A stretch of 64,000 nucleotides of DNA from Sphaerisporangium rubeum (lineage in GTDB: Bacteria > Actinomycetota > Actinomycetes > Streptosporangiales > Streptosporangiaceae). The stretch covers positions 6,316,501 through 6,380,500 of the forward strand of contig NZ_JACHIU010000001.1 in assembly GCF_014207705.1 (NCBI RefSeq). The letters are read 5' to 3'. Shown piece after piece: positions 4,264-42,525 of this stretch (position 1 is the stretch's first letter; each line of letters opens with the position of its first letter). Made by a program: the position numbers and the translations under genes. The notes below the pieces were generated by a model that saw nothing but the letters and a program-made list of their open reading frames with translations, was not told the DNA's origin and ran no database searches.

Positions 4264-4466
4264 TCGGCTTCACGGAGCTCCTTGCGGAGCGGCCCGCTTG
4301 CGCCTTCGAAAGAATAGCCCAGCTTGGCGGTGAGGACCAAAACGATTGGTGAACACCCAGCTCGACGGTCACATCCCGAGGCCGTCCACAGGGGGTGCCG
4401 GGGTGGTGGGCCGATGTGCGAGGCTGACTTTTGGTCAGAGCCCGTTCCACGAGAGGAGCCCGCGCC

Positions 4467-6461
4467 TTGAGCGAGAACCCGTTCTTCGCCCCGAGTGCCC
4501 TGCCCTACGGCCTGCCGCCTTTCGCCGAGATCCGGGAGGAGCACTACGTCCCCGCTTTCGAGCGCGGCATGACCGAGCAGCTGGCCGAGGTCGAGGCCAT
4601 CGCGGGAGACAGCGAGGCGCCGACGTTCGACAACACCGTGGCGGCCCTGGAGCGCTCGGGCCAGGTGCTCAGCCGCGTGTCGGCCGTGTTCTTCAACCAG
4701 TCCTCCTCCGACACCAACCCCACGGTGCAGGAGATCCAGAAACAGATCATCCCCAAGCTCACCCAGCACGGCGACGCGATCCACCTCAACCGGCCGCTGT
4801 TCGCGCGCATCAGGCAGATCTCCCCCGACGGCCTCGACGCCGAGCAGGCGTGGCTGCTGGAGCGGTACGTCACCGACTTCGTGCGCGCCGGCGCCGAGCT
4901 CGGCGCCGAGGACCAGGAACGGCTCAAGGCCCTCAACGAGGAGCTCTCCACGCTGTCCACGCGCTTCGAGCAGAACCTCCTGGCCCACACCAACGCCTCC
5001 GCCGTGATCGTCGACGACGTGGCCGAGCTGGACGGCCTGTCCGAGGACTCCGTCAAGGCCGCCGCCGAGACCGCCAAGTCACGCGGCCTCCCCGGCAAGT
5101 ACGTCATCCCGCTCGTCCTGCCGACCGGTCAGCCCGGTCTCGCCGAGCTGACCGACCGCGCGCTGCGTGAGCGCATCCACCGCGCCTCCATCCAGCGCGG
5201 CGTGCCGGACAACGAAGAGCTGATCGTCCGCATCGCCACGCTGCGCGCCGAGCGCGCCAAGCTCCTCGGCTACCCGACCCACGCGGCGTACGTCGTGGCC
5301 GACCAGACCGCGCCGACCACCGAGGCCGTCACCGAGATGCTCGGCAAACTCACCCCACCCGCCGTCGCCAACGCGCACCGCGAGGCCGAGGAGCTGCGTG
5401 AGCAGGCCGGCCACGACCTGGAGCCGTGGGACTGGTCGTTCTACGCCGAAAAGGTCCTCAAGGAGCGGTACGCCATCGACGGCCGCCAGATGCGGCCGTA
5501 CTTCGAGCTGGACCGCGTCCTACGCGACGGCGTGTTCCACGCCGCCACCCTGCTGTACGGCATCACGTTCACCGAGCGACCCGACCTCGTCGGTTACCAC
5601 CCCGACGTCCGTGTCTTCGAGGTCTTCAACGAGGACGGCTCACAACTCGGCCTGTTCCTCGGCGACTACTACGCGCGACCGTCCAAGCGCGGCGGCGCCT
5701 GGATGAACAGCCTGGTCAAACAGTCGACCCTTGAGGGCACCAGGCCGGTGGTGGTCAACAACCTCAACATCGCCAAACCCCCCGCCGGCGAGCCGACCCT
5801 GATGACCTTCGAAGAGGTCAACACGATGTTCCACGAGTTCGGCCACGCACTCCACGGCCTGTTCTCGGAGGTCCACTACCCCCGCTTCTCCGGCACCGCC
5901 GTCCCCCGCGACTTCGTGGAGTACCCGTCCCAGGTCAACGAGATGTGGGCCGTCTGGCCGTCCATCCTCGCCAACTACGCACGCCACTGGCAGACCGGCG
6001 ACCCCATGCCGAAGGACCTCCTCGACCGCATGCTGGAGTCCCAGAAGTACAACCAGGGCTACAAAACCGTCGAATACCTCGCCGCCACCCTCCTCGACTG
6101 GTCCTGGCACACCTTCGAAACCCCACCCGACAACGCTCTGACCTTCGAACGTCAAGCCCTCCAGACCGCCGGCGTGGACCTCCCCCTGGTCCCCCCGCGC
6201 TACCGAAGCACCTACTTCGCACACATCTGGTCCAGCGGCTACAGTGCCGGCTACTACTCCTACATCTGGAGCGAAGTCCTGGACGCCGACACCGTCGACT
6301 GGTTCAACGAAAACGGCGGCCTGCTGCGCGAGAACGGCGACACCTTCCGCCAGAAACTCCTCAGCAAAGGCGGCAGCGTAGACCCCATGACCGCCTTCCA
6401 ATCCTTCCGAGGCCGCACCCCCCGCATAGAACCCCTGCTCGAACGCCGCGGCCTCCTCTAA
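4467..6461 (+). CDS. M3-family zinc metallopeptidase (oligopeptidase A / Dcp-like)
   Basis: A 664-residue cytosolic oligopeptidase of the thimet/PrlC/Dcp family, which trims short peptides. The zinc site HEFGH is at residues 456-460 (context TMFHEFGHALHG), followed by the expected downstream Glu region and the family's C-terminal TYFAHIWSSGYSAGYYSYIW segment. No signal peptide is seen. I choose TTG at 4467 (MSENPFFAPSALPYG) because GAGAGGAG lies 8 nt upstream; an in-frame GTG at 4431 would add 12 residues but lacks a ribosome site. Length matches the family. Confidence 0.9.
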   Translation: MSENPFFAPSALPYGLPPFAEIREEHYVPAFERGMTEQLAEVEAIAGDSEAPTFDNTVAALERSGQVLSRVSAVFFNQSSSDTNPTVQEIQKQIIPKLTQHGDAIHLNRPLFARIRQISPDGLDAEQAWLLERYVTDFVRAGAELGAEDQERLKALNEELSTLSTRFEQNLLAHTNASAVIVDDVAELDGLSEDSVKAAAETAKSRGLPGKYVIPLVLPTGQPGLAELTDRALRERIHRASIQRGVPDNEELIVRIATLRAERAKLLGYPTHAAYVVADQTAPTTEAVTEMLGKLTPPAVANAHREAEELREQAGHDLEPWDWSFYAEKVLKERYAIDGRQMRPYFELDRVLRDGVFHAATLLYGITFTERPDLVGYHPDVRVFEVFNEDGSQLGLFLGDYYARPSKRGGAWMNSLVKQSTLEGTRPVVVNNLNIAKPPAGEPTLMTFEEVNTMFHEFGHALHGLFSEVHYPRFSGTAVPRDFVEYPSQVNEMWAVWPSILANYARHWQTGDPMPKDLLDRMLESQKYNQGYKTVEYLAATLLDWSWHTFETPPDNALTFERQALQTAGVDLPLVPPRYRSTYFAHIWSSGYSAGYYSYIWSEVLDADTVDWFNENGGLLRENGDTFRQKLLSKGGSVDPMTAFQSFRGRTPRIEPLLERRGLL

Positions 6462-11055: not shown

Positions 11056-14000
11056 GTGCGCGAAGGCCGTTGGACCACGATCACGTCTTCGCAGTACCAG
11101 CACGAACGCGAAGCCCTCGAACACGTGCGCGCGGCCCTCCCCGACGCCGAGCCCTATCGCGCCTGGTCCAATTTCACGTTCACCGCCAATACCGGCCACG
11201 TACGCGAGGTCGATCTGTTCGTGGCCACCCACGGCGGCCTTTTCCTCATCGAGATCAAGAGCCTGCACGGCCGGCTGAGCGCGAGCGGATCCAACTGGGT
11301 CCAGACCACCGGCAGAAACACCCGATATTTCGACAATCCATTACATCTAGCCGATTCCAAGGCAAAACAACTCAAATCACTACTACAGAAGGCCGCAGGA
11401 CACCGGGCCCGCATCCCCTACATCCACGCCGCCGTCTTCCTGTCGGTCCCCTCCCTCGACGTCGACCTCCCCGACCACCACCTCCACGGCGTGTACGGCC
11501 CGGAGAACGGCCGCCTGCCGCGCATCCTGTCCGACCTGCTGCTGAAGGGCCCCGACGACGAGCGCAACCGCCTCGCGTCCACGGTCTCCAAGCAGCTCGA
11601 CGGCTGGCTGCGCAGGGTCGGCATCGCCAAGAGCCGTTCCCATCTCCAGGTCGGCGCGTGGCAGCTCGACCCCCGGCCGTTCGACGTCGGCCCCACCTGG
11701 GAGGACCACCTGGCCACGCACGGCCAGATCACCGCCGAGAAGCGCCGCGTCCGCATCTACCTGGTCGAACGCAACGCCGACGAGGAGATGCGCGCCAGCA
11801 TGGCCCGCGCGGCGCGCCGCGAGGTGCTGGCGCTGCACGGCATCAGCCACCCCGGCATCGTGCGGGTGGACACCATGGAGCAGCACGAGGCCGGGCCCGC
11901 GCTGATCTTCCGGCACGACCCGCGCGCCAAGCGCCTCGACCACTACATCGGCGAGTACGGCACACGCCTGGACCTGCTGACCAGGCTCGGCCTGATCCGC
12001 CAGCTCGCCGAGGCCGTGTCGTACGCGCACCGCCGTCACCTGCACCACCGCGCGCTGTCGGCCCGCAGCGTGCTCGTCACCCCCGGCCGCTCCCCCAAGG
12101 CGGCCCCCGAGCAGGGCTGGCTCGTCCCGGAGCTGCAGATCAGCGACTGGCAGGCGGCGACACGCGGCGAGGACACCGACGGCACCGCGTTGCGCATGAG
12201 TTCGAGCAGCCACGCCGGCCACCACATGGAGGCGTCCGCTCAGGCCTACCTCGCTCCTGAGCTCACCACGCCGAGCCCCGACCCGGTGGCACTCGACGTG
12301 TTCGGCCTCGGCGCGCTGTCCTATCTACTCCTCACCGGTCAGCCCCCCGGCGACCGGCGCGCCGAGCTGCTGGCACGCCTGTCCAAGGAGAACGGCCTGC
12401 GTCCCTCGACGGTCGCCGACTCGGTCACCGGCTTCATGGACGAGCTGGTGCAGGCCGCGACGGCCCCGGTCCCCGCGCAGCGCCTGACCAGCGTGGCCGA
12501 GTTCCTTGAGATGCTGGAGGTCGTCGAGGAGGAGGCGACCGCGCCGGAGACCGTCCACCCGGCCGCGGACCGCGACGACGACCTCGACCCGCTGGACGCG
12601 CGGACCGGCGACGTGGTCGGCGGCGAGTGGCGCGTGGACAAACGCCTCGGCACCGGCTCCACGTCCCGCGCGCTGCTGGTGGAGAACCTCCAGACCGGCA
12701 AGCCGGAGGTGCTGAAGGTCGCACTGTCGGACGAGAAGGCCGGAAGGCTCGACCACGAGGCGTCCGTCCTGCGTGACCTACGGGACGATTCGCGGGTCAT
12801 CAAGCTGACCCGTCCCGAGCCGATCCGCGTCGGCGGACGCACCTGCATCGTGCTGGAGCACGCCGGCGAGCACACCGTGGCCCGCAAGATCCGCGAGCAG
12901 GGTGCGCTGACGCCGGACGAGCTGGAGACCTACAGCGACTACCTGTTCGGCGCGATGGACTTCCTCGAAGGCGAAGGCGTCACCCACCGCGACATCAAAC
13001 CCGACAACATCGCGATCAGGGTCCGGCCCAACCGCACCCGGCAGCTCGTCCTGTTCGACTTCTCCCTGGCCGGCATCTCGGTCAAGGAGATCGAGGCCGG
13101 CACGCCGCACTACCTGGACCCGTTCCTCGGCACGGCGAAACGCACGGTGTACGACGCGCACGCCGAGCGGTACGCGCTGGCGGTGACGCTGCACGAGATG
13201 GCGTCCGGCGAGCTTCCCGTGTGGGGGGACGGCGCGACCGAGCCCCGGTACACCGAGGGGCCGCCGACCCTGGCGGCAGAGGCATTCGACCCCGCCATCA
13301 GGGACGGCCTCATCGAGTTCTTCCTGCGCGCGCTGCACCGCGAGGCCAAACAGCGGTTCGAGTCGCTGAAGGACATGCGCACCGCCTGGTCGCAGGTGTT
13401 CCGGCGTTCCGACGCGGTCCCACCGGTACGGCCGTCGCACCCCGGCGACCTGCCGGCCGAGGACGTCACCGCCGACGAGGCACGCGACGCCGCCGCGCTG
13501 GCCGCGACCCGCGCGACCGTGCTGGAGAGCGCCGGCCTGACCCCGCGCGCGGTGTCCACGGCCCACCGGCTCGGCGCGACCACCGTCGGCGACCTGCTCG
13601 CGCTGCCGTCCAAGACCCTGATGAGCCTGCCGGGGCTCGGCGCCAAGACCCGGCAGGAGCTGCAGCACCGCATCCGCGACTGGCGGTTCCGGCTCGGCGA
13701 GAACGAGCCGATCACCTCGGTCGAGAAGGCCGCCGCGCGCGAGGAGGCCGCGTCGGTGACCGGCGGCGACGAGGAGGCGCACGCACGCGTCGGACTCGAC
13801 ACGATCGCCGCGCTGCTGGTCCCCGACACCACCGGCCGCAACGCCAACGAGGCGGAGGCCACCCGGCTCCTGCTGGGCCTGCCGGACCCGAGCGGCACGC
13901 TGCCGGCCCTGCCGCCGTGGCCCCGCCATCCCCTGGTCGCCACGGCGGTCGGCGTGACACCTGGCCGGGTCGCGCAGATGCTCGTCAGGCAGCGCACCCG

Positions 14001-29864: not shown

Positions 29865-32668
29865 GCGCGGCCCCCGCCGCGGCGAGGCCCCTGCCGCTGA
29901 CCACCGCCGCGCTGGAACAGGAGGCCGGACGGCTGCTGCGCAAGTACGCCAAGAGTGACCAGCGGGTGCTGCTGCTGCGTGCCGAGCCTGCGTGGCCGGG
30001 GCCCGAGGAGACGGTGCTGAACGGCCGGCGGGTCCGGGTCGTGGCGGCCGTGTCGCCGCTGGCGGTGATGGAGCAGGTCAGCAGGCATCTGGAGCGGGAC
30101 GGCGACGCGGTGCTCGTCGTGCTCACCGACGCCGCCGAGAACACACTCGGCGTGGGACTGCTGAGCAGGGTGATCCGGCAGCGGATCTTCGTGGTGGAGC
30201 CGTGGCTGCTGGTGCAGGAGAGCTTCGGCGCGCAGCAGACCGACCCCCGGCTGCTCGCCGAGGGATGGGCCGCCGAGGCGCTGATCGACGCCATGCCGCC
30301 AGGCGGGTGGCCGCGGCTCACCGGTGCGGTGCTGACCCGCGAGGTGGCGCTCAGGCAGCTCGCCGCGCGGCGGCTGCGCCTGGACCGGCTCGGCCTCGGC
30401 GCCGACGATCTCGACGGCGCCGCGTTGCTGCTGTGGAGCGCCGACCCGGCCGCCGTGGAGGCGTTCGGCGCGCTGCGTGACGAGGAACGCGCGGGCCTTC
30501 GCGCGTGGCTGGCGGAGGTCGCGGGGAGCACGGCGGACGTCGTGTTCCGGCTCGCCGACGGAGGCCGCGCAGGGGACGCGCTCGCGCTCGGGCTGCTCTG
30601 CGGCGCGCTGTGGGCCCCGGAGGCGGGTCCGGAGGCGCAGCGGTCGCAAGGCGGGGTGCTGGTGTACGTCTCCGCGCTCGCCGGTGGACAGGGACGCGGG
30701 TCGCTGGACGACGCGACGATCCGCGGTTTCGCCGCAGAGGCCGAGCGGACCGTGACGCGGTCGCTGCACGAGAACGCCGGCCGTACGGCGCACGCGGCTC
30801 TGGACCGCGCCGAGGACCTGGTCGTGCAGTTCGGCGCGCGTCCCGCGGCGCGGTTCAGCGGCCTGCTGCGTTCCGGGTTCGAGGACCGCGTCGGTGACGT
30901 CGCGGCGGCGCTGGCGTCCGCCACCGGGGAACGGTCACCGCGGAGCCTGGCCGTGCTGGCAGGCGCCGTCGCGCGGCTGCGTGCGCACGCGCTCGCCGAG
31001 AGCCAGGCGCACCGGGTGCGGCGCGCCGAGATGGCGCAGCGGCTCCTGCAGTGGCTGGTGCGTCCCTTCGACGCCGAGCGGCAGGTCGGCGGGGTGGGGC
31101 CGGCGGTACAGGCGCAGGTCGACGAGTGGGGGTGGGTGGACCGCGCGCGTGACGACATCTGGATCGGTGAGCCGCACAACGAGCCGCTGAAGGAGGCGTA
31201 CAAGGCACTCCACGCGTCCGTGCGCGAACGAGGACGACGGCTGAACCAGGCGTTCGCCGCGAGGCTCGCGGCCTGGACCGCCACCGGGCCCGGCGACCTG
31301 CTGACCGTGGACAGTGTGCTGCCGCGCGTCGTGGCGCCTCTGGTGGCCGATGGACCGTCGCGTCCGGTGCTGTTCGTGGTGCTGGACGGGATGAGCACCG
31401 CTGTGGCGTGCGAGCTGGCCGAGGAGCTGCGGCGGCAGAACTGGGAGGAGTACGACCCGGTGCCTGGCGGCTCGGGACGGCCTCGGCGGCGCGCGGTGGT
31501 CGCGGCGATCCCCACGGTGACCCGGGTGTCGCGCGCCAGCATGTTCGCCGCGCGGCTCACCACCGGTGGTCCCGCCGAGGAGCGCAAGGCGTTCGAGAAC
31601 CACGCGTTCTGGCGGGGACGGCAGGTCAGACTGTTCCATAAGAACAGTTTGGAGGGTGACGCGGGCCGGTCTCTCGGTGACGAGCTGACCGCGGCGCTGG
31701 AGGACGAGTCCGTCCACGTCGGTGTGGTGCTGAACGCCATCGACGACGCGCTCGACAAAGGCAGGGGACGTGTGGACGACGTGTGGGCCGTCGCGGACGT
31801 GGGGGTGCTGCGTACCTTGCTGCACTACGCGCGGCTGCAGGGCCGGGCCGTCATCCTGACCAGCGATCACGGACATGTGCTCGAACGCGGCGGTGAGCTG
31901 CGCGGCCTTCCCGGCGCGTTGTCGGCGCGGCACCGGGAAGCGGGGGGTTCGGTGAGTGATGGGGAGGTGGAGCTGGCCGGGCCACGGGTGGCAGTTGGCC
32001 GGCTCGTGGCGCTGTGGGACCCCTCGGTGCGCTACCTGCCGAGCAAGGCCGGTTATCACGGCGGCGCGTCCCTGGCGGAGGTGACCATCCCCCTGCTGGC
32101 GTTCCTGCCGCTCGGGTCGTCGGCGCCGGAGGGGTGGCGTGCGCTGCCTCACCAGGAGCCGGAATGGTGGTCGCTCGCGGCTCCTGTCGCCGATGACCGT
32201 CCGTCGGCTCCGGCACCGGCCAAGGCGCGGCCCAGGAGCAGGAAACCGGCCGGTGACGCGCCGACGCTGTTCGACGAGAAACCCGATCCCGCTCTGCTGA
32301 CGGGGGTGCCGCTCGCCGCGGCCGCCGTGAGCCCGGACGAGGCGCTGGTCGCCGAGTTGCTCGCCGGGGAGCTGTTCGCGGCGCAACACCAGATGACGCC
32401 GCGCAGGATCCCCAAAGTGAAAATCCGTTCCGTGCTGCTCGCACTGCTCGACGCCGGTGGCCCGCTGCCGCTGCCGGTGGTGGCCGAGAGCGCCGAGGAG
32501 CCCGCCGTGCGCGCGGCGGGGCTGGTGGCGACGTTGCAGCGGATACTCAACGTCGACAACTACCCGGTGCTCGCCGTCACCGACAACGGCCGCAGCGTGC
32601 GGCTGAATCCTCATCTGCTGCGTGAGCAGTTCGGGCTGCGGTCCGCGGGACGGCGAGGCACGGCATGA
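29861..32668 (+). CDS. pglZ: PglZ: alkaline-phosphatase-superfamily protein of BREX
   Basis: A 935-residue protein. The central PglZ domain carries the metal-binding motifs LFVVLDGMS (Asp509) and TSDHGHVLE (Asp669-His670). The N-terminal third is a helical platform; the C-terminal part after a Pro/Ala/Lys linker (about 790-815) is a small helical domain. PglZ is the signature gene of all BREX types. GTG 29861 and the stop at 32668 both use 4-nt overlaps with neighbours. Confidence 0.95.
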   Translation: MSAAPAAARPLPLTTAALEQEAGRLLRKYAKSDQRVLLLRAEPAWPGPEETVLNGRRVRVVAAVSPLAVMEQVSRHLERDGDAVLVVLTDAAENTLGVGLLSRVIRQRIFVVEPWLLVQESFGAQQTDPRLLAEGWAAEALIDAMPPGGWPRLTGAVLTREVALRQLAARRLRLDRLGLGADDLDGAALLLWSADPAAVEAFGALRDEERAGLRAWLAEVAGSTADVVFRLADGGRAGDALALGLLCGALWAPEAGPEAQRSQGGVLVYVSALAGGQGRGSLDDATIRGFAAEAERTVTRSLHENAGRTAHAALDRAEDLVVQFGARPAARFSGLLRSGFEDRVGDVAAALASATGERSPRSLAVLAGAVARLRAHALAESQAHRVRRAEMAQRLLQWLVRPFDAERQVGGVGPAVQAQVDEWGWVDRARDDIWIGEPHNEPLKEAYKALHASVRERGRRLNQAFAARLAAWTATGPGDLLTVDSVLPRVVAPLVADGPSRPVLFVVLDGMSTAVACELAEELRRQNWEEYDPVPGGSGRPRRRAVVAAIPTVTRVSRASMFAARLTTGGPAEERKAFENHAFWRGRQVRLFHKNSLEGDAGRSLGDELTAALEDESVHVGVVLNAIDDALDKGRGRVDDVWAVADVGVLRTLLHYARLQGRAVILTSDHGHVLERGGELRGLPGALSARHREAGGSVSDGEVELAGPRVAVGRLVALWDPSVRYLPSKAGYHGGASLAEVTIPLLAFLPLGSSAPEGWRALPHQEPEWWSLAAPVADDRPSAPAPAKARPRSRKPAGDAPTLFDEKPDPALLTGVPLAAAAVSPDEALVAELLAGELFAAQHQMTPRRIPKVKIRSVLLALLDAGGPLPLPVVAESAEEPAVRAAGLVATLQRILNVDNYPVLAVTDNGRSVRLNPHLLREQFGLRSAGRRGTA

Positions 32669-33990
32669 CGGCCGGGATGCCGGTGAGCGCGGCCCGCAGG
32701 CGTGCGGTGATCGACGCGCTGCGGCAGGGGGCCGTACCGCAGGCGGGTCTCGACCTGCTGGCGGTCGGTCTCGGCCGGTTCGAGAAGGCCATGAGCGACG
32801 AGCTGGACACCCTGGCGTCCGGCGGGTCGGTGTTCAAGGCCATCAGAGGTGAGTACGGCTCGGGGAAGACCTTCCTCACCCGGTGGCTCGCCGAGGCGGC
32901 CAAGCGCAGAGGCATGGCGACCGCCGAGGTGCAGGTGTCGGAGAACGAGACACCTCTGCACAGACTGGAGACCGTCTACCGGCGGCTCACCGAGCGACTG
33001 TGCACGTCGAGCTATCCGCCGAGCGCGCTGCGGCCCGTCGTGGACGCGTGGTTCTACGTCCTTGAGGAGGACGCTCTCGCCGCAGGCGCCGACCCGGCGG
33101 GGCTCGGCGCGGCCGTCGAGGAGCTGCTCGACGAGCGCCTGGCCGAGGTGAGCCGGTCGGCACCGACGTTCGCGGCGGCGCTGCGCGGCTACCGGGAGGC
33201 CTCCGGTGCCGGTGACACCGCGACCGCCGAGGCCATCATGGCGTGGCTCGGTGGTCAGCCGAACGTCGCGGCCGCCGCACGGCGCGCGGCCGGGGTCCGC
33301 GGCGACCTGGACCACTTCGGTGCGCTCGGGTTCGTCCAGGGGCTGCTGACGGTGCTGCGGGACTCCGGCCATCCGGGCCTGGTGCTGGTCCTCGACGAGG
33401 TGGAGACCCTGCAACGGGTGCGGTCCGACGCTCGCGACAAGGCACTCAACTCCTTGCGGCAACTCATCGACGAGGTCCACTCGGGACGGTTCCCCGGGCT
33501 GTATCTGCTGATCACCGGCACGCCGGCCTTCTTCGAGGGCCCGCAAGGTGTGCCGCGGCTCGCGCCGCTCGCGCAACGGCTGGCGACCGACTTCCTTGCC
33601 GACCCGCGTTTCGACAATCCGAGAGCCATCCAGATCCGGCTGCCGGGGTTCACGCTCGCCTCGCTGACCGAGCTCGGAATCAAGGTGCGCGACTTGTACG
33701 CGAGCGGCCGGGCCGTGTCCCCGCGCGTCGGCGCGGTGGTGGACGACGCCTACGTCGCGGAGCTGGCGCACGCCGTCAGCGGTGAACTTGGCGGGCTGGT
33801 GGGGGTGGCGCCTCGGCTGTTCCTGCGCAAGCTCGTCGACGTCCTGGACCGGGTGGACCAGTTCGAGGACTTCGTCCCGCGTGAGCACTACACGCTCACG
33901 TTGGCCGCCGGCGAACTGACCGCCGTCGAGCGTAACGCCGCACGTCACGGCTCGCCGTCCTCGGCGGACTCGGTGGAGCTGGACCTGTGA
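32665..33990 (+). CDS. brxD: BrxD: BREX AAA ATPase
   Basis: A 441-residue ATPase (DUF2791-type). Walker A is GEYGSGKTF at residues 62-70 and Walker B LVLVLDEVETL near 240-249. A sensor-like VKI-free stretch LYLLITGTPAFFEGPQG follows. BrxD is typical of type 2 BREX and is encoded beside the helicase BrxHI. Overlap with pglZ is ATGA and with brxHI is GTGA. Confidence 0.92.
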   Translation: MTAGMPVSAARRRAVIDALRQGAVPQAGLDLLAVGLGRFEKAMSDELDTLASGGSVFKAIRGEYGSGKTFLTRWLAEAAKRRGMATAEVQVSENETPLHRLETVYRRLTERLCTSSYPPSALRPVVDAWFYVLEEDALAAGADPAGLGAAVEELLDERLAEVSRSAPTFAAALRGYREASGAGDTATAEAIMAWLGGQPNVAAAARRAAGVRGDLDHFGALGFVQGLLTVLRDSGHPGLVLVLDEVETLQRVRSDARDKALNSLRQLIDEVHSGRFPGLYLLITGTPAFFEGPQGVPRLAPLAQRLATDFLADPRFDNPRAIQIRLPGFTLASLTELGIKVRDLYASGRAVSPRVGAVVDDAYVAELAHAVSGELGGLVGVAPRLFLRKLVDVLDRVDQFEDFVPREHYTLTLAAGELTAVERNAARHGSPSSADSVELDL

Positions 33991-36101
33991 GCGACCTGGA
34001 GCTTCTGCATCCGACGCTCGCGCATCACGTCGTGAACACTCTCGGATGGCCGTCGTTGCGTCCTCTGCAGCGCGAGGCGCTACGGCCGCTCGCCGACGGA
34101 GAGGACGCGGTGCTGCTCGCGCCGACCGCAGGCGGCAAGACCGAGGCGGCGCTGTTCCCTCTGCTGTCCGCCATGGCCCGGCACCAGTGGACCGGCGTCT
34201 CGGTCGTCTACGTGTGTCCGATCAAGGCGCTACTGAACAACCTGCTTCCCCGGGTCGAGCGGTACGCGGGATGGCTCGGCCGGCGTGTGGCCCTCTGGCA
34301 CGGGGACGTCACCTCCGCCGCACGCGCCGCGATCCTGCGCGACCTCCCCGACATCCTGCTCACCACACCGGAATCGCTGGAATCCATGCTGGTCAGCACG
34401 AAGGTCGACCACACCGTCGTCTTCGCGGGGGTGCGGGCCGTCGTCGTGGACGAGGTCCACGCGTTCGCCGGGGACGACCGCGGCTGGCATCTGCTGTGCG
34501 TCCTGGAACGGCTCACCCGTGTGACACGGCGACCCATCCAGCGGGTCGGCCTGTCGGCGACGGTCGGCAACCCGGTCGAACTCCTCGACTGGCTCCAGGG
34601 GTCGAGCCGCGGTCGCCGCGCGGCACGGGTCGTCGAGCCCGAGCCGTCCGGCCAGGCCCTGGACCGGCCGCCGCCGGGTGACGTCGAGCTGGATCATGTC
34701 GGTTCCGTCGCCAACGCGGCCAAGGTCGTCGCGAGCCTGCACCGCGGTGAGAAGCGGCTGGTCTTCTGCGACTCCAGGCGGCTGGTCGAGGAGCTCGGCG
34801 CGCACCTGCGGGCCCTCGGGGTGACGACGTTCCTGTCGCACGCCTCGCTGTCGGCCGAGGAGCGGCGGCGCGCGGAACAGGCGTTCGGCGAGGAACGCGA
34901 CTGCGTGATCGTCGCGACGTCCACGCTGGAACTCGGCATCGACGTGGGGGACCTCGACCGGGTGATCCAGATCGACGCGCCGGCCACGGTCGCGGCGTTT
35001 CTGCAACGCGTCGGCCGTACCGGCAGGCGGCCCGGCTCCAGGCGCAACTGCCTGTTCCTCGCGCTCGACCACGCCGGGCTCGTCCAGGCGGCGGGCCTGC
35101 TGCTGCTGTGGGGTCGGCACTGGGTGGAACCGGTCACCCCTCCTCCTGAGCCGCGGCACATCGTCGCTCAGCAGCTTCTCGCGTTGTGCCTGCAGGAGTT
35201 CCGGGTCGGGGACCGCTCCTGGGCCGAGTGGTGGGCCGGACTGGAACCGTTCGGTCCGGCGGCGGCACCGATCCTGAACCATCTGGTCGCGGCCGGCTAC
35301 ATCGACACCGACGACGGCATGATGTTCATCGGCCCGGCGGCCGAGGCCGCGTTCGGTACGCGGCACTTCATGGCGCTCACCACGGTGTTCACCGCCGCAC
35401 CGCAGTTCACCGTGCTCCACGGCCGCACGGAGATCGGCCGTACCGATCCGTCGTTGCTGTGCGACCGCGAGGAAGGGCCACGCCTTCTGCTGCTGGCGGG
35501 ACGTAGCTGGCGGGTCACGTGGGTCGACTGGAAGCGACGCCGGTGCCATGTCGAGGCGGTGGAACGCGGCGGCCGGGCCCGGTGGCAGTCGGCCGACCGG
35601 TCCTACGGAGGGTCCTACGCGCTGGTGCAGGCCATGCGTGAGGTTCTGCTCGGCGCCGACCCTCCTGTACGGCTCACCCATCGTGCCGAGAAGGCCCTGG
35701 CCGAGGCCCGGGACGACCATCTGGACGTCGTCCACCCTGGCGGCACGATCATCGCTCGTGGTGACGACGTCCGCTGGTGGACCTGGGCCGGGTACCGCGC
35801 CAACGTGACGCTCCGCAGCACCTTCGCCTCCGTCGCCGACCCGAGACAGCAGGTCACCGACGCCTACCTCCGTCTACGCACCGACATCACCCCGCAGGCC
35901 TGGTCATCCGCCGTCCGCGACGCGGTTCAGGGCCTCACCCTCCCCACTCCGGACGCCAAGGCGCTTGAGGGTCTGAAGTTCGGCGCCGCGCTGCCGCCTC
36001 GCCTGGCCGAGCGGACTCTGGCCGTCCGCCTGGCGGACTTCGCGGGAGCCGCCGCCGTCCTGGACCAGCCACAACGCTTTGTCACTTACCCCGGCAGATA
36101 A
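33987..36101 (+). CDS. brxHI: BrxHI: Lhr-like DExH helicase of type 2 BREX
   Basis: A 704-residue SF2 helicase. Motif I is PTAGGKTE (residues 46-53) and motif II DEVH (155-158). Motif III is LSATVG, and the C-terminal helicase motifs are ATSTLELGIDVGDLDRVIQ and QRVGRTGRRPGS. A winged-helix/Lhr-like C-terminal region follows. It closes the pglY-pglZ-brxD-brxHI operon. Confidence 0.92.
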   Translation: MSDLELLHPTLAHHVVNTLGWPSLRPLQREALRPLADGEDAVLLAPTAGGKTEAALFPLLSAMARHQWTGVSVVYVCPIKALLNNLLPRVERYAGWLGRRVALWHGDVTSAARAAILRDLPDILLTTPESLESMLVSTKVDHTVVFAGVRAVVVDEVHAFAGDDRGWHLLCVLERLTRVTRRPIQRVGLSATVGNPVELLDWLQGSSRGRRAARVVEPEPSGQALDRPPPGDVELDHVGSVANAAKVVASLHRGEKRLVFCDSRRLVEELGAHLRALGVTTFLSHASLSAEERRRAEQAFGEERDCVIVATSTLELGIDVGDLDRVIQIDAPATVAAFLQRVGRTGRRPGSRRNCLFLALDHAGLVQAAGLLLLWGRHWVEPVTPPPEPRHIVAQQLLALCLQEFRVGDRSWAEWWAGLEPFGPAAAPILNHLVAAGYIDTDDGMMFIGPAAEAAFGTRHFMALTTVFTAAPQFTVLHGRTEIGRTDPSLLCDREEGPRLLLLAGRSWRVTWVDWKRRRCHVEAVERGGRARWQSADRSYGGSYALVQAMREVLLGADPPVRLTHRAEKALAEARDDHLDVVHPGGTIIARGDDVRWWTWAGYRANVTLRSTFASVADPRQQVTDAYLRLRTDITPQAWSSAVRDAVQGLTLPTPDAKALEGLKFGAALPPRLAERTLAVRLADFAGAAAVLDQPQRFVTYPGR

Positions 36102-36349
36102 GGCGGCGTCACCAGCCGCTATTCCGCATCGCGAGCGGACGGGTCTTTTTTGGGTGAGCCGCAATAGGGGCAGCGATCATCCGAATCCAGGACGACATAC
36201 GCCGGTATATTCGCCGTCAATCTCAACACGCGAAATACATTTGAAACGGCGACCACGCGTTTGAGATCGTTCGGAAGTCAGTGCCGGAGCAGCGGAACGT
36301 GCTGTCAATCCCTGCCTGTGCGCGGTCAATTAAGAAAGGTGGCACAGTC
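36102..36349 (+). promoter_or_regulatory. Upstream region of the repeat-peptide gene
   Basis: AT-rich for this genome between 36190 and 36245 (TATATT at 36206; TTGAAA at 36241), which suggests a dedicated promoter after brxHI. No perfectly spaced sigma-70 pair is evident. The ribosome site AAAGGTGG lies about 8 nt before ATG 36350. Confidence 0.4.
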
Positions 36350-36598
36350 ATGTCTCAGCAGAAGTCCGAGGTGTTCGAGGTTCACGAGGACGCCTACGAC
36401 GCGCCGCAGGCCGCTCTCAACCACAACCACAACGAGAGTGCCGTCTTCGAGGACCACGAGGACACCTACGACAGGCTGGAGTCCGCTCTCACTTCCAACC
36501 ACAACGAGAGCGCCGTCTTCGAGAACCACGAGGACAGCTACGACGCGCCGCAGTCCGCCCTCAACCTCAACCACAACGAGGTTCTTATCGAGGTGTGA
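36350..36598 (+). CDS. Putative RiPP precursor with three 24-residue repeats
   Basis: An 82-residue acidic peptide. Residues 8-77 form three head-to-tail units with an exact 24-residue (72-nt) period. Consensus is VFE-x-HED-x-YD-xxx-(A/S)AL-xx-NHNE, with aligned V8/V32/V56, Y16/Y40/Y64, L23/L47/L71 and N26/N50/N74. A short N-terminus (MSQQKSE) precedes and VLIEV ends the peptide. There is no Cys and only one Lys. ATG 36350 is preceded by AAAGGTGG. The repeats look like multiple core units of a modified peptide, and the SagB-type enzyme two genes downstream supports this. An alternative is a metal-binding (His/Asp/Glu-rich) structural peptide. No known precursor family was recognised. Confidence 0.65.
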   Translation: MSQQKSEVFEVHEDAYDAPQAALNHNHNESAVFEDHEDTYDRLESALTSNHNESAVFENHEDSYDAPQSALNLNHNEVLIEV

Positions 36599-36669
36599 GC
36601 CTGCGGACGGACGGGGTTCCGCGGGATGACCGTGGCGCTCCAGGTCTGTCGTAGTGCGACTTCAGGCCT

Positions 36670-36699
36670 GCCTCCCAGGCCAGTGTGGTCCTGGGAGGC
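36670..36699 (+). terminator. Strong intercistronic hairpin after the precursor gene
   Basis: GCCTCCCAGG and CCTGGGAGGC form a perfect 10-bp stem with a 10-nt loop between the precursor and the TPR gene. It likely acts as a partial terminator or mRNA 3' stabiliser, giving excess precursor over enzyme. Confidence 0.65.
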
Positions 36700-36775
36700 G
36701 GTATATCGCCGGTGGCGTCGTCCGGTGGGGTGTGTTACGGGAGGGCTCGTGCGGGGGGAGCGTTCAGGAGGGGTT

Positions 36776-37759
36776 GTGAGCGGTGGGGCTCGGCCGGCTG
36801 GGGTTTCTGGGTCGGTGGGGACGTTGCTGCGGTACGGACGTGAGCGGGTTGCCGAGAAGCGCTTCGAGGTGGCGGAGCGGGCTTTTGTCGACGCTGTCGC
36901 GCGGGCTCGGCGGGACGGGTCGGACGGGGGGAGGGTTCTCGCGCAGTGTGAGCTGGCGAGTTTGTGGCGGATGCGTGGGGGTTATCGCAGAGCGGGGTTG
37001 TTGTTCGCCTTGACGCTTCCGGTGGCGGAGCGGGTTTTCGGGGCTGCGTCGGTGCAGGTGGCGACGGTGTGCAATGAATGGGGGGTATGGGGGAAGTACA
37101 CCGGCCGGTTCGAGCAGGCGGAGGGGCTTTATCTGCGGGCTTTGACGATTCTGGAGGCGGTGCGCGGGGGTGAGCATGAGGATGTGGCCACCGTGTGCCA
37201 CAACCTGGGGGGGCTCGCTCACGCTCGTGGCGATCATCACGGTGGTGAGCCGTGGGGACGGCGTGCGGCGGAGGTGCGTGCCGAGATCCTCGGCGAGGAT
37301 CATCCGAGGGTGGCGGCGGATCTCGCGGCCTGGGCCGCACTGGTGGACGGCTGCGGTCGTCCGGATGAGGCTGAGGTGCTGTTGCGGCGGGCTCTCGTGG
37401 TCTTCGAGGCGGCGTACGGGCCCTGGCACCATGATGTGGCAGCGGCGCTGCACAATCTCGCCGCCATCGCGCATCGAAGGGGTGATCTGGAGACGGCTCT
37501 TGCGCACTACACCCGTGCGCTGGCCGTCAAGGACGCGGTGCTCGGGCCGGGTCACCCGGAGTCGACGATCACGCTGATCAATCTCGGTGCGCTGCATCGC
37601 GCGCTCCACCAGCCTGGACGGGCCCACGCCTGCTACAGCCGTGCGGCCGAGGTGCTGGAGCGGGTGGCGCCGGATCATCCGCATCTCGCGGCGGCCCGCC
37701 GCGGCCAGGCGGCCACCGCGGCCGGGCTCGCGGCAGATCGCGCCGCCGACGGCGCCTGA
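36776..37759 (+). CDS. Tetratricopeptide (kinesin light chain-like) repeat protein
   Basis: A 327-residue protein composed almost wholly of TPR units of the 42-residue kinesin-light-chain type (YLRALTILEAVRGGEHEDVATVCHN; LLRRALVVFEAAYGPWHHDV; HYTRALAVKDAVLGPGHPES). GTG 36776 is preceded by AGGAGGGG at 36766; an earlier in-frame ATG at 36626 lacks a good site and overlaps the hairpin. It lies between the repeat peptide and the SagB-type enzyme, so it may hold the precursor for modification. That role is inference. Confidence 0.8.
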   Translation: MSGGARPAGVSGSVGTLLRYGRERVAEKRFEVAERAFVDAVARARRDGSDGGRVLAQCELASLWRMRGGYRRAGLLFALTLPVAERVFGAASVQVATVCNEWGVWGKYTGRFEQAEGLYLRALTILEAVRGGEHEDVATVCHNLGGLAHARGDHHGGEPWGRRAAEVRAEILGEDHPRVAADLAAWAALVDGCGRPDEAEVLLRRALVVFEAAYGPWHHDVAAALHNLAAIAHRRGDLETALAHYTRALAVKDAVLGPGHPESTITLINLGALHRALHQPGRAHACYSRAAEVLERVAPDHPHLAAARRGQAATAAGLAADRAADGA

Positions 37760-37844
37760 TGGCTCTGACGGATCCGGTGAATCGGCGAATCCGCGAATCG
37801 GCGAACCTGACGGACACAGCTCACACGGAAGAACAGAGGTCACG

Positions 37845-38966
37845 GTGAACGTACGCCTGTCTGCTTGCGGCGCGCTCATGTGGGACGCCGGCAAGCTGGT
37901 CTGGGACGACTATCTCGGCCATCGGCAGTTCGCTCTGGCCGAGGGGGTCGAGCGGGTGTTGCGGTGGTTCACCGTGTTCCGTGAGCTGGACTCCGTGCGT
38001 GAGATGTCGGACGACCCGGACGAGGCCGCCGGCTGGCACAAGATCGCTACGGTGCTGGCGGAGAACGACATCCTGATCGCCGAGGACGGGCCGCGTCATC
38101 GGCGTGAGCAGGCGGTCGAGCAGGCCTGGCGACCGTGGGGGCCGCTGGCGCGCGCGTACCACTTCTCCACCCGGTCCGACGCCGGGACCGCCATGCGTAC
38201 GGCCGAGCAGGACAACGAGGAACTCGAGGCCAAGGTTGTCACCGATCCGCCGCCGCCGGCGTTCTGGTCACTGCCAGGCACCACCCGGGTCGCGTTACCC
38301 GACGCCGACCCTGGTGTGTGGCGGCATCGGGACCTGATCGACGTGCTGCACCGGCGCCGTACCCGGCGGTACTTCGGCACCGCCGCGTTACCGCTGGAGA
38401 CGGTCGCGGCGCTGCTCAAGACGGCGGCCGGTCCCCTGCGGCGGGTCGACGGGCCGCTGACCCAGGAAGGGGTCACGCTCGACCCCGGCGGGGTGCTGAC
38501 CGACTCCTGGCAGAGGGTGTTCAAGACCAGTCCGTCGGGTGGCGCGCGCCATCCCACCGAGATCTACCTCTACGCACGTAACGTGGAAGGTCTGGCACCG
38601 GGGGCCTACCATTACGCCGCCGCCGGCCACACGCTGGAATTCCTCGGCCGCCGGCTGGACGACGAGCGGCTCGTGGCCGCGGTCGGCGACCAGGACTGGG
38701 TCGGCAGGGCCGGAGCGCTGATCGTCTACACGAGCGTCATCGCACGCAACCAATGGAAGTACAGCTTCCCGCGGGTCTACCGGAGCCTGATGATGGACGT
38801 CGGCCACCTCAGCCAGACCGTCTACCTGCTGGCCACCGCGGCGGGGCTGCACATCACGTTCACCGCGGCCCTGCGTGACCAGATCCTTGAGGAGCTTCTC
38901 GGCTGCGACCCCGCCGTCCAGCTCGTCCTCGGTACCTCGGTCATCGGCACGCCGTCCACCGGGTGA
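37845..38966 (+). CDS. SagB-type FMN-dependent dehydrogenase
   Basis: A 373-residue nitroreductase-superfamily enzyme of the SagB/ThcOx type. An N-terminal region (about 1-155) precedes the flavin domain, which starts at RHRDLIDVLHRRRTRRYFG. Key features are SPSGGARHPTEIYLYA (FMN and substrate loop), GAYHY, and WKYSFPRVYRSLMMDVGH, which keeps the Lys-Tyr pair used by azoline oxidases. It should be catalytically competent. Known relatives oxidise azolines made by YcaO cyclodehydratases, but the local precursor has no Cys and no YcaO is encoded in the window, so the reaction here may differ. GTG 37845 has GAGG 5 nt upstream. Confidence 0.88.
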   Translation: MNVRLSACGALMWDAGKLVWDDYLGHRQFALAEGVERVLRWFTVFRELDSVREMSDDPDEAAGWHKIATVLAENDILIAEDGPRHRREQAVEQAWRPWGPLARAYHFSTRSDAGTAMRTAEQDNEELEAKVVTDPPPPAFWSLPGTTRVALPDADPGVWRHRDLIDVLHRRRTRRYFGTAALPLETVAALLKTAAGPLRRVDGPLTQEGVTLDPGGVLTDSWQRVFKTSPSGGARHPTEIYLYARNVEGLAPGAYHYAAAGHTLEFLGRRLDDERLVAAVGDQDWVGRAGALIVYTSVIARNQWKYSFPRVYRSLMMDVGHLSQTVYLLATAAGLHITFTAALRDQILEELLGCDPAVQLVLGTSVIGTPSTG

Positions 38967-38971
38967 CGCGA

Positions 38972-39004
38972 ACGTCCCCGGCGCGCGGGTCGCGCCGGGG
39001 ACGT
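38972..39004. terminator. Bidirectional terminator between convergent SagB and xylanase genes
   Basis: A perfect 14-bp stem (ACGTCCCCGGCGCG / CGCGCCGGGGACGT) with a 5-nt loop immediately follows both stop codons. Confidence 0.85.
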
Positions 39005-39016
39005 CGTCGTGCGGGG

Positions 39017-41190
<2,174 letters not shown>

Positions 41191-42525
41191 ATGTTGAAGC
41201 ATAGGTCCGTCCTCGGTGCCGTGGCGCTGGCCGCGGTCGCCGTGCTGGCCACGAGCCAGGCGGCATTGAGCAGCGGTAGCGCCGCCACGACCGGGACCGC
41301 GAAGGCCGCCTCGGCCGCCGCGCTCGCCGGAACCGCGGGTTGTGGCAAGAATCCGACGCTGACCAGCGGCGTACGGAACATCACCACCAGCGGCAAGAAT
41401 CGTCAGTACATCCTGCGGATCCCCGCGAACTACAACAACAACAATCCGTACCGCCTGATCATCGGCCTGCACTGGCTGAACGGCAACATGAACGACGTCG
41501 ACTCAGGTGGCAGCAGCGGGGCCGTCTGGTCCTATTACGGTCAGCGGCAGTTGTCGAACAACTCCACGATCTTCATCTCGCCGCAGGGCTTCAACAACGG
41601 GTGGGCCAACAACGGCGGTGAGGACGTCGTCTTCATGGACGACATCCTGCGCCAGGTCGAGGCCGACCTTTGTGTCGACCCCTCGCTGCGTTTCGCCATG
41701 GGCTTCAGCTACGGCGGCGGCATGAGCTTCTCGCTCGCCTGCAGCCGCGCCAATGTGTTCCGCGCGGTCGCGGTGTTCTCCGGCGCGCAGCTCAGCGGAT
41801 GCAGCGGCGGCAACGACCCGATCGCTTACATGGGGCTCCACGGAATCTCCGACAACGTCCTGAACATCTCGCAGGGACGTTCGCTGCGCGACAGATTCGT
41901 GCGGAACAACGGCTGCACCGCGCAGAACCCGCGTGAGCCCTCCGCCGGCAGCCGCACGCACATCACCACCGAGTACTCCGGCTGCCGCGCCGGCTACCCG
42001 GTCGTCTGGGCCGCGTTCGACGGCGGCCACGGACCCGCTCCGGTCGACGGCAGCGGCGGCGACAACGGCGCGCAGACCTGGACCAAGAACGAGGTCTATC
42101 GGTTCATCTCCCAGTTCCAGAGCACCTCGAACCCGAACCCCACGCCTACCCCCACCCCAACGGTGACCCCCACCGTCACCCCGACCCCGACGCCGACCCC
42201 GACGCCGACGGTCACCCCGACGCCGGTCCCCGGTGGCTGCTCGGCGACCATGGAGACGACGAACTCCTGGCCGGGTGGCTTCCAGTCCACCGTCACCGTC
42301 CGCGCCGGCACCAGCGCCATCAGCCGCTGGACCGTGTCCTGGACCTGGCCCGGTGGCCAGAGCATCAGCAGCCTGTGGAACGGCGTCCGCTCGGGCTCCG
42401 GGTCGAACGTGACCGTCCGTAACGAGGCCTACAACGGCTCGGTGGCGGCCAACGGCAGCACCACGTTCGGCTTCACCGCGACCGGCAGCGCGGCCACACC
42501 CACCCTTTCCTGCAGCATCGCCTGA
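41191..42525 (+). CDS. Secreted CE1-like (feruloyl/acetylxylan) esterase with CBM2
   Basis: A 444-residue secreted esterase. A signal peptide (1 to about 31) is followed by an alpha/beta-hydrolase domain of the LpqC/PHB-depolymerase/CE1 type (about 50-310) with nucleophile motif GFSYGGG and a late FDGGHGPAP histidine. A Pro-Thr linker of about 35 residues and a CBM2 cellulose/xylan-binding domain (about 346-444, CSATMETTNSWPGGFQS) follow. ATG 41191 has AAAGGGAA upstream. Paired functionally with the adjacent xylanase in xylan deconstruction. Confidence 0.88.
   Translation: MLKHRSVLGAVALAAVAVLATSQAALSSGSAATTGTAKAASAAALAGTAGCGKNPTLTSGVRNITTSGKNRQYILRIPANYNNNNPYRLIIGLHWLNGNMNDVDSGGSSGAVWSYYGQRQLSNNSTIFISPQGFNNGWANNGGEDVVFMDDILRQVEADLCVDPSLRFAMGFSYGGGMSFSLACSRANVFRAVAVFSGAQLSGCSGGNDPIAYMGLHGISDNVLNISQGRSLRDRFVRNNGCTAQNPREPSAGSRTHITTEYSGCRAGYPVVWAAFDGGHGPAPVDGSGGDNGAQTWTKNEVYRFISQFQSTSNPNPTPTPTPTVTPTVTPTPTPTPTPTVTPTPVPGGCSATMETTNSWPGGFQSTVTVRAGTSAISRWTVSWTWPGGQSISSLWNGVRSGSGSNVTVRNEAYNGSVAANGSTTFGFTATGSAATPTLSCSIA

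Follow-up and report, generated by a model that had tools for sequence, protein, structure and literature searches.

A two-module repeat peptide encoded with a TPR protein and a SagB-type dehydrogenase in Sphaerisporangium rubeum suggests a candidate RiPP-type family with exchangeable tailoring enzymes

What does a SagB-type dehydrogenase do beside a repeat peptide without cysteine and without a YcaO gene in its locus? The question is raised by a three-gene cassette in a 64,000-nucleotide stretch of the Sphaerisporangium rubeum genome (contig NZ_JACHIU010000001.1, positions 6316501 to 6380500; referred to as the window), which encodes a precursor-like peptide, a tetratricopeptide repeat (TPR) protein and the dehydrogenase. 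A preliminary description of the window had taken the locus for a candidate new class of ribosomally synthesized and post-translationally modified peptides (RiPPs) defined by the SagB-type enzyme. Comparison with other genomes indicates that each peptide unit is composed of two modules, VFExHEDxYxxPxxAL (the FE half) and [NT]xNHNE (the NHNE half), of which the former follows the dehydrogenase and the latter follows the TPR protein. Judged from gene neighborhoods, the family is defined by the NHNE peptide and the TPR protein, with the tailoring enzyme swapped between loci.

The units of the window peptide are spaced by 24 amino acids (72 bp), and those listed in Table 1 comprise 22 amino acids. 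Tandem Repeats Finder returned a 72-bp array of 2.9 copies for the peptide open reading frame (ORF), with 82% matches and a score of 295. The preliminary description of 82 residues in three exact 24-residue repeats holds for the length, the number of units and their regular spacing but not for exactness, since pairwise identities are 16/24, 18/24, and 15/24. The translated ORF contains no Cys, as had been stated, and few Ser or Thr residues, and its composition is acidic and His rich. No Pfam or NCBIfam model matched the peptides of the window or of related loci above its cutoff. Nei-Gojobori ratios were 0.46 to 0.82 among the three genomes with three units, 0.41, 0.79, and 1.08 between the window peptide's own units, and 1.5 (few sites) between L054 and the end of L059, which indicates that purifying selection on the peptide DNA is only modest.

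A scan of public genomes for the dehydrogenase revealed three Microbispora loci, in M. amethystogenes (L002), M. triticiradicis (L004), and Microbispora sp. H13382 (L003; L numbers are labels of compared loci). Besides the window genome, the whole cassette was found in four Microbispora-type genomes, L042, L052, and L054, which are taken to be the same contigs as L002, L004, and L003, respectively, and L059, which has the same genus label. Their dehydrogenases and TPR proteins share 85% to 86% and 69% to 77% identity, respectively, with those of the window, and the peptides of the two genomes with three units (L042 and L052) share 63% and 69%; L059 has two units and L054 one, compared with three in the window. 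By its label, the window genome belongs to another genus of the same family, and its cassette is flanked by genes unlike those of the Microbispora loci. Among 11 genomes of the window genus searched with the dehydrogenase profile, only the window's own enzyme reached 500 bits. A same-genus xylanase flank was considered as an empty site, and its paralogues were too numerous to show one. The conserved grouping of the three genes in four additional genomes shows that the cassette is not a chance arrangement. The general mark of a RiPP system, a short gene-encoded precursor conserved beside a peptide-modifying enzyme, is thereby present in five genomes. The acidic, His-rich composition would also suit an unmodified metal-binding peptide, with repeats rich in His, Asp, and Glu, lying beside an unrelated flavoenzyme. 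This is highly improbable, since the three genes are kept together despite differing flanks and the FE motif follows the dehydrogenase in other genera without NHNE.

In the 12 units of the five cassette genomes, V1, F2, E3, D7, Y9, N19, H20, N21, and E22 are invariant, P12 and L16 are kept in 11 units and H5 and A15 in 10, and position 18 is occupied by six different residues. More distant dehydrogenases (36% to 46% identity to that of the window, five measured) have short single-unit peptides just upstream. Those of L035, L037, L040, L047, L061, L126, and L127 contain FE..(x)xD.Y, often with P..[AC]L, and no NHNE. FE..D.Y is thus common across dehydrogenase types, with differing tails, and its Tyr is invariant in all 17 aligned units. 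These FE peptides and dehydrogenases also occur with YcaO-TfuA or a racemase-like enzyme, without a TPR protein. Among 338 genomes of the bacterial family, a profile of the 17 units (A4) matched 12 at an E value of ≤1.4e-7, the next best match being at 0.01. A dehydrogenase at ≥510 bits is encoded in exactly these 12 of 341 genomes, with the FE peptide within about 1.5 kb, and no orphan FE peptide was found at E ≤1.4e-7 in the 338 genomes. All 12 peptides had been known beside the dehydrogenase before the profile search, and 10 of the genomes supplied the profile rows, so part of the positive association follows from how the profile was made; the absence of orphans and a held-out ranking are independent of it. 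In that ranking, a profile of only the 11 window and Microbispora-type rows was compared with 4,528 short ORFs from 59 loci. The upstream peptides of other dehydrogenase types took ranks 5 to 13 (E, 0.016 to 1.9; two genomes are counted twice, as L126/L192 and L127/L193), ahead of the first unrelated ORF (E, 2.1). Across the genomes compared, the FE half follows the dehydrogenase.

A search of 135 genomes of the family with the window TPR protein gave eight matches at E ≤1e-40: the window's own, one from Microbispora, and six in genomes without the cassette. A peptide of the second-half type (NHNE or NHNR) lies near the TPR gene in five of these six genomes. Together with two Streptomyces plasmid loci reached by searching plasmids with TPR proteins, seven of eight TPR loci without the dehydrogenase carry an NH[NS][ER] peptide; four of the peptides are arrays of 4 to 7 copies, and two are from Streptomyces (Table 1). 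No dehydrogenase homologue was matched in the L214 to L219 stretches or in the two Streptomyces plasmid stretches, and an FE..D.Y regular expression was absent from all seven peptides. NHNE occurs in 9 of 5,450 short ORFs from 68 loci, and all nine are in loci with a TPR homologue. Counted by locus, it was present in 9 of 12 with the TPR gene and in none of 55 without it (P = 5e-9); in this count, L222 duplicates the L047 region, and Microbispora-type cassettes supply four of the nine loci. A profile of the NHNE core recovered only known peptides at E ≤0.004 in 13 whole genomes, with two chance-like matches at 0.43; its rows came largely from those peptides, which leaves the absence of further ones as the informative part of the result. 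A plasmid search with an NHNE peptide gave only two chance-like staphylococcal matches, and 25 pattern matches in viral contigs included no relatives. The tie of the NHNE half to the TPR protein, as read from these co-occurrences, is strong. The SagB-type enzyme as the defining element of the class is consequently not borne out, since NHNE/TPR loci carry other enzymes or none that was noticed. Peptide homologues without a SagB neighbor, named in the preliminary description as what would contradict it, exist for the NHNE half (the seven loci) and were not found for the FE half in the 338 genomes.

The distributed PLSDB table, which is incomplete, omits the seven-unit ORF of L223 and lists an overlapping hypothetical gene on the other strand. 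This array, on plasmid p3211-1, illustrates that NH[NS]E arrays can escape annotation.

The enzymes near the NHNE/TPR pair differ among loci. YcaO and TfuA accompany it in L214, a radical S-adenosylmethionine (SAM) C-methyltransferase of TIGR03975 (571 bits; cutoff, 282) accompanies it in L215, and L216 has a major facilitator superfamily (MFS) gene together with a class IV lanthionine synthetase (816 bits; cutoff, 650) encoded two genes away from the peptide. The L214 YcaO is 48% to 50% identical to the YcaO proteins beside the FE-type dehydrogenases of L047, L126, and L127, which indicates that one YcaO line occurs in both contexts, that of FE peptide and dehydrogenase without the TPR protein and that of NHNE peptide and TPR protein without the dehydrogenase. 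The window unit fuses both halves, and its locus has both partners. These arrangements suggest a mix-and-match route to modified peptides.

In L220, a 46-residue stretch between the peptide and the MFS gene (positions 4385 to 4522) matches the end of the L214 TfuA at 65% identity, perhaps the remnant of a lost YcaO-TfuA pair.

Table 1. Features of the window cassette (window positions) and peptides at TPR loci without the dehydrogenase
Feature	Length	Position	Strand	Description
Precursor-like peptide	82 aa	36350..36598	+	ATG start; MSQQKSE head, three 24-aa units, tail to VLIEV
Unit 1, VFEVHEDAYDAPQAALNHNHNE		36371..36436	+	NHNE at 36425-36436
Unit 2, VFEDHEDTYDRLESALTSNHNE		36443..36508	+	NHNE at 36497-36508
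Unit 3, VFENHEDSYDAPQSALNLNHNE		36515..36580	+	NHNE at 36569-36580
TPR protein	327 aa	36776..37759	+	GTG start, AGGAGG upstream; Pfam; at other loci associated with NHNE peptides
SagB/ThcOx-like nitroreductase-family dehydrogenase	373 aa	37845..38966	+	GTG start; Pfam nitroreductase; NCBIfam
L214 peptide	143 aa			Four units ..EA[AS]LxxNHN[EQ]..; near TPR gene
L215 peptide				One copy, INFNHNRILVE; near TPR gene
L216 peptide				Two units GLSTNHNETVL; near TPR gene
L217 peptide				Five units GLSLNH[NS]E..; near TPR gene
L218 peptide				Four units; near TPR gene
L220 peptide, Streptomyces NBC_01334 plasmid	65 aa			'Hypothetical protein'; two NHNE; TPR homologue
L223 peptide, Streptomyces sp. 3211 plasmid p3211-1	141 aa	3652-4077		ORF with seven NHSE units; found via L218 TPR protein

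A constant pair of NHNE peptide and TPR protein, with a tailoring enzyme that changes between loci or is not seen, also recalls peptide signaling. The NHNE peptide would then be a pheromone-like signal that the TPR protein receives or escorts inside the cell, in the manner of RRNPP systems, and the enzymes would only decorate the signal; an MFS gene between the peptide and TPR genes in five loci (L216, L217, L218, L220, and L223) would fit this arrangement. However, only TPR models of Pfam match the window TPR protein, which by Pfam has no helix-turn-helix or other DNA-binding domain, signals of this kind do not usually have precursors with multiple cores, and no target gene is known. Signaling is considered unlikely.

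The two proteins of the window proved to be what the preliminary description had named, including the Lys-Tyr pair of the dehydrogenase. Pfam TPR_12 matches the TPR ORF at an E value of 7e-41, in a scan that used the longer ORF 36626-37756. The dehydrogenase scores above the cutoff of the NCBIfam SagB model TIGR03605 (108.4 versus 78.4 bits) and below that of TIGR04511, 'putative peptide maturation dehydrogenase' (162 versus 240 bits), which was exceeded in none of 297 genomes of the bacterial family. Its Lys-Tyr pair, a pair that has a role in azoline dehydrogenases, is K305-Y306 and aligns with the WKY of ThcOx. Like ThcOx (CyaGox; PDB 5lq4) and McbC/BmdC-type oxidases, the window enzyme has a nitroreductase domain and a W-K-Y motif; however, those oxidases act on azolines, whereas no azoline-forming enzyme is encoded in the cassette. 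Profile positions 5 to 358 align with ThcOx, beginning at about chain residue 118. The N-terminal part of the enzyme, which was examined for a winged-helix RiPP recognition element, matches part of the second peptide clamp of ThcOx in the full-length profile only. As described for it, ThcOx is a flavin mononucleotide-dependent peptide oxidase with peptide-clamp domains, the second of which (87 to 194 in the published numbering) is considered inactive there since it is buried, and BmdC is described as having the same layout of a RiPP recognition element-like domain and an oxidase.

Among the seven window genes scanned with Pfam and NCBIfam (32665 to 42522), no ATP-grasp ligase, radical SAM, YcaO, or TfuA gene was found. 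The absence of YcaO from the window, stated before, was confirmed; the single match in the 7.5-Mb genome lies at contig position 1866603, far from the cassette at about 6352850. Since the peptide has no Cys and no YcaO is local, azoline oxidation by the window dehydrogenase is unlikely, as had been expected. A distant YcaO might nevertheless form azolines or amidines on the peptide in trans for the dehydrogenase to oxidize. The nearest dehydrogenase relatives with an FE peptide (44% to 46% identity) adjoin YcaO-TfuA, and a YcaO is present in the genome. However, besides lacking Cys in its presumed substrate, this remote YcaO is at most 33% identical, over 102 amino acids, to the compared YcaO proteins of the other cassette genomes. 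A shared trans-acting YcaO was rejected, no orthologue being common to the five genomes among the YcaO proteins compared, and azole chemistry in trans is very unlikely.

The sole YcaO of the genome adjoins a 411-amino-acid protein and, by reading, a cupin/JmjC-looking protein (L191; 1860603 to 1873115), a possible peptide cluster of its own.

The explanation that we hold with slightly more confidence than doubt is a RiPP-type cassette with a bipartite, multiunit precursor, in which the flavin-dependent dehydrogenase would recognize the FE module and oxidize a residue beside or inside it in each unit, and the TPR protein would bind the NHNE half. The partner of each half is established by co-occurrence. 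Binding of NHNE by the TPR protein is suggested by that co-occurrence and by conserved TPR columns; the TPR protein may act as a carrier, holding the chain or delivering it to a tailoring enzyme or exporter. Cleavage between units would yield several near-identical products, which would presumably be secreted. For the oxidation itself, alpha,beta-dehydrogenation at the invariant Tyr, with a loss of 2 Da per unit, is the first candidate chemistry, albeit a doubtful one. Albonoursin synthase shares the nitroreductase fold and is described as performing alpha,beta-dehydrogenation; its chain 8uc3 matched the dehydrogenase profile only at an E value of 0.26. The preliminary description had proposed the Tyr-Asp pair or the His as target; the conserved Tyr agrees with the former, whereas the His of NHNE is unlikely, because the dehydrogenase-linked peptides of other genera lack NHNE.

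As a variant of, rather than an alternative to, this explanation, the FE half may serve only as a binding site, with oxidation of a residue in the variable stretch that follows (in the window P..AL.., and in L035, L037, and L040 Cys-containing tails). A shared FE..D.Y with tails that vary by dehydrogenase type is the usual pattern of leader and core, and lasso leaders also carry Y..P. However, the window part after FE has no obvious oxidizable side chain except Asn and His, and the single redox-prone residue kept in every aligned unit is the Tyr. The variant is possible but not expected. A broader proposal is about as tentative: the conserved L..NH[NS]E core, usually in tandem units, would be the cargo mark of a dedicated TPR protein that addresses a peptide-modification platform, into which unrelated enzymes (SagB-type dehydrogenase, YcaO-TfuA, radical SAM C-methyltransferase, or none) would plug via their own motifs within the same repeat, the SagB-type enzyme of the window acting without azolines on the invariant Tyr. 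The likelihoods given to the alternatives overlap with that of the favored explanation and do not sum to one.

Several observations weigh against the favored explanation. In L217, L218, L220, and L223, no tailoring enzyme was noticed between the peptide and TPR genes, only the MFS gene, which indicates that modification may not be needed everywhere, and L219 has a TPR homologue without such a peptide. Neither a protease nor an exporter was found among the seven window genes scanned, and an N-terminal-only dehydrogenase profile matched no solved structure at E ≤10. The reverse of the held-out ranking was mixed. A profile of the three racemase-type rows places L052, L059, and L042 at ranks 4 to 6 (E, 2e-7 to 1e-3) but ranks L054 behind unrelated ORFs and misses the YcaO-type peptides. 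A profile of the three YcaO-type rows in turn misses the racemase-type peptides and gives weak matches to L052, L042, and L059 (E, 6e-4 to 0.8). In addition, we know of no modified product of this system.

Several known systems share parts of the cassette. Linear azole peptides and other thiazole/oxazole-modified microcins share the SagB-family dehydrogenase but have a clustered YcaO and a core rich in Cys, Ser, and Thr. Thiovarsolin-type YcaO-TfuA RiPPs likewise have imperfect tandem-repeat precursors in Actinobacteria, described as ranging from nonrepeating to five repeats with variable copy number (PMC6511847). YcaO-TfuA, as in thiovarsolins, occurs in relatives of both halves but not in the window cassette, and the var cluster, as described there, includes no TPR or SagB protein (PMC6511847). 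Branch-6 graspetides are described with a SagB-like enzyme, and what TPR proteins do in ATP-grasp loci is called unclear (PMC8939145). Some dehydrogenases related to that of the window adjoin ATP-grasp-like genes (L039, Pfam RimK at 21.2 bits with a cutoff of 21; L106, by reading), and the dehydrogenase neighbors in L055 and L070 have no Pfam match; the window genes scanned include no ATP-grasp gene. The FxSxx-COOH system also places a TPR protein, FxsT, beside a short peptide. However, the window TPR protein scores below the FxsT cutoff (NF040586; 94 versus 300 bits), the peptide ends in VLIEV rather than FxSxx, and no radical SAM gene is among those scanned. Of the TIGR03975 clusters, L215 combines the enzyme with an NHNR peptide and a TPR homologue, where the window has the dehydrogenase instead.

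Among the matches listed in a search of the open PMC literature, none described the system; subscription papers lie outside that search, and prior mention is possible. Tandem-repeat precursors being already known, the new element would be the two-module unit together with the exchange of tailoring enzymes on an NHNE/TPR base. If correct, this would be a RiPP-like recognition code legible from sequence, with one half-motif per partner protein, so that a precursor sequence by itself would allow its partners to be predicted and genome mining could uncover new hybrids. A SagB-type enzyme would moreover be placed outside azole formation, and TPR proteins of the sort that recur in peptide clusters would gain a defined role.

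Upstream of the cassette, a type 2 BREX-like locus (window positions 11056 to 36101) with PglW, BrxC/PglY, PglZ, BrxD, and BrxHI was identified by PADLOC. It ends about 250 bp before the peptide, and no such locus adjoins the Microbispora cassettes, by reading and with no search made.

The other dehydrogenase loci show further arrangements. An FE motif seen by eye in the ATP-grasp (graspetide-type) precursors of L045, L070, L106, and L108 was not supported by the profile; the L106 precursor ranked 23rd (E, 42) with the FE profile and 14th (E, 1.0) when the profile was built from the other types, and the likeness is not significant. L035 and L040 combine the FE peptide and dehydrogenase with an alanine-racemase-N-like enzyme (by Pfam in L040 and by reading in L035), which makes another cluster type; in this type, an MFS gene is present in L040 and L037, and the peptides of L035, L037, and L040 have Cys in their tails. 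The YcaO beside the FE-type dehydrogenase of L061 (G256) aligns along no more than its first third to half and may be broken. Among distant SagB-like dehydrogenases (L053, L056, L058, L060, L064, L067, and L221), several adjoin, by reading, MFS and metal-uptake-like genes, and on plasmid pA of Priestia sp. J2, nikABC, as annotated, lies near such an enzyme. In L053 and L064, a tiny RRKKTRSRLLNNH[AG] peptide is encoded beside the distant SagB-like dehydrogenase and is possibly metallophore-like.

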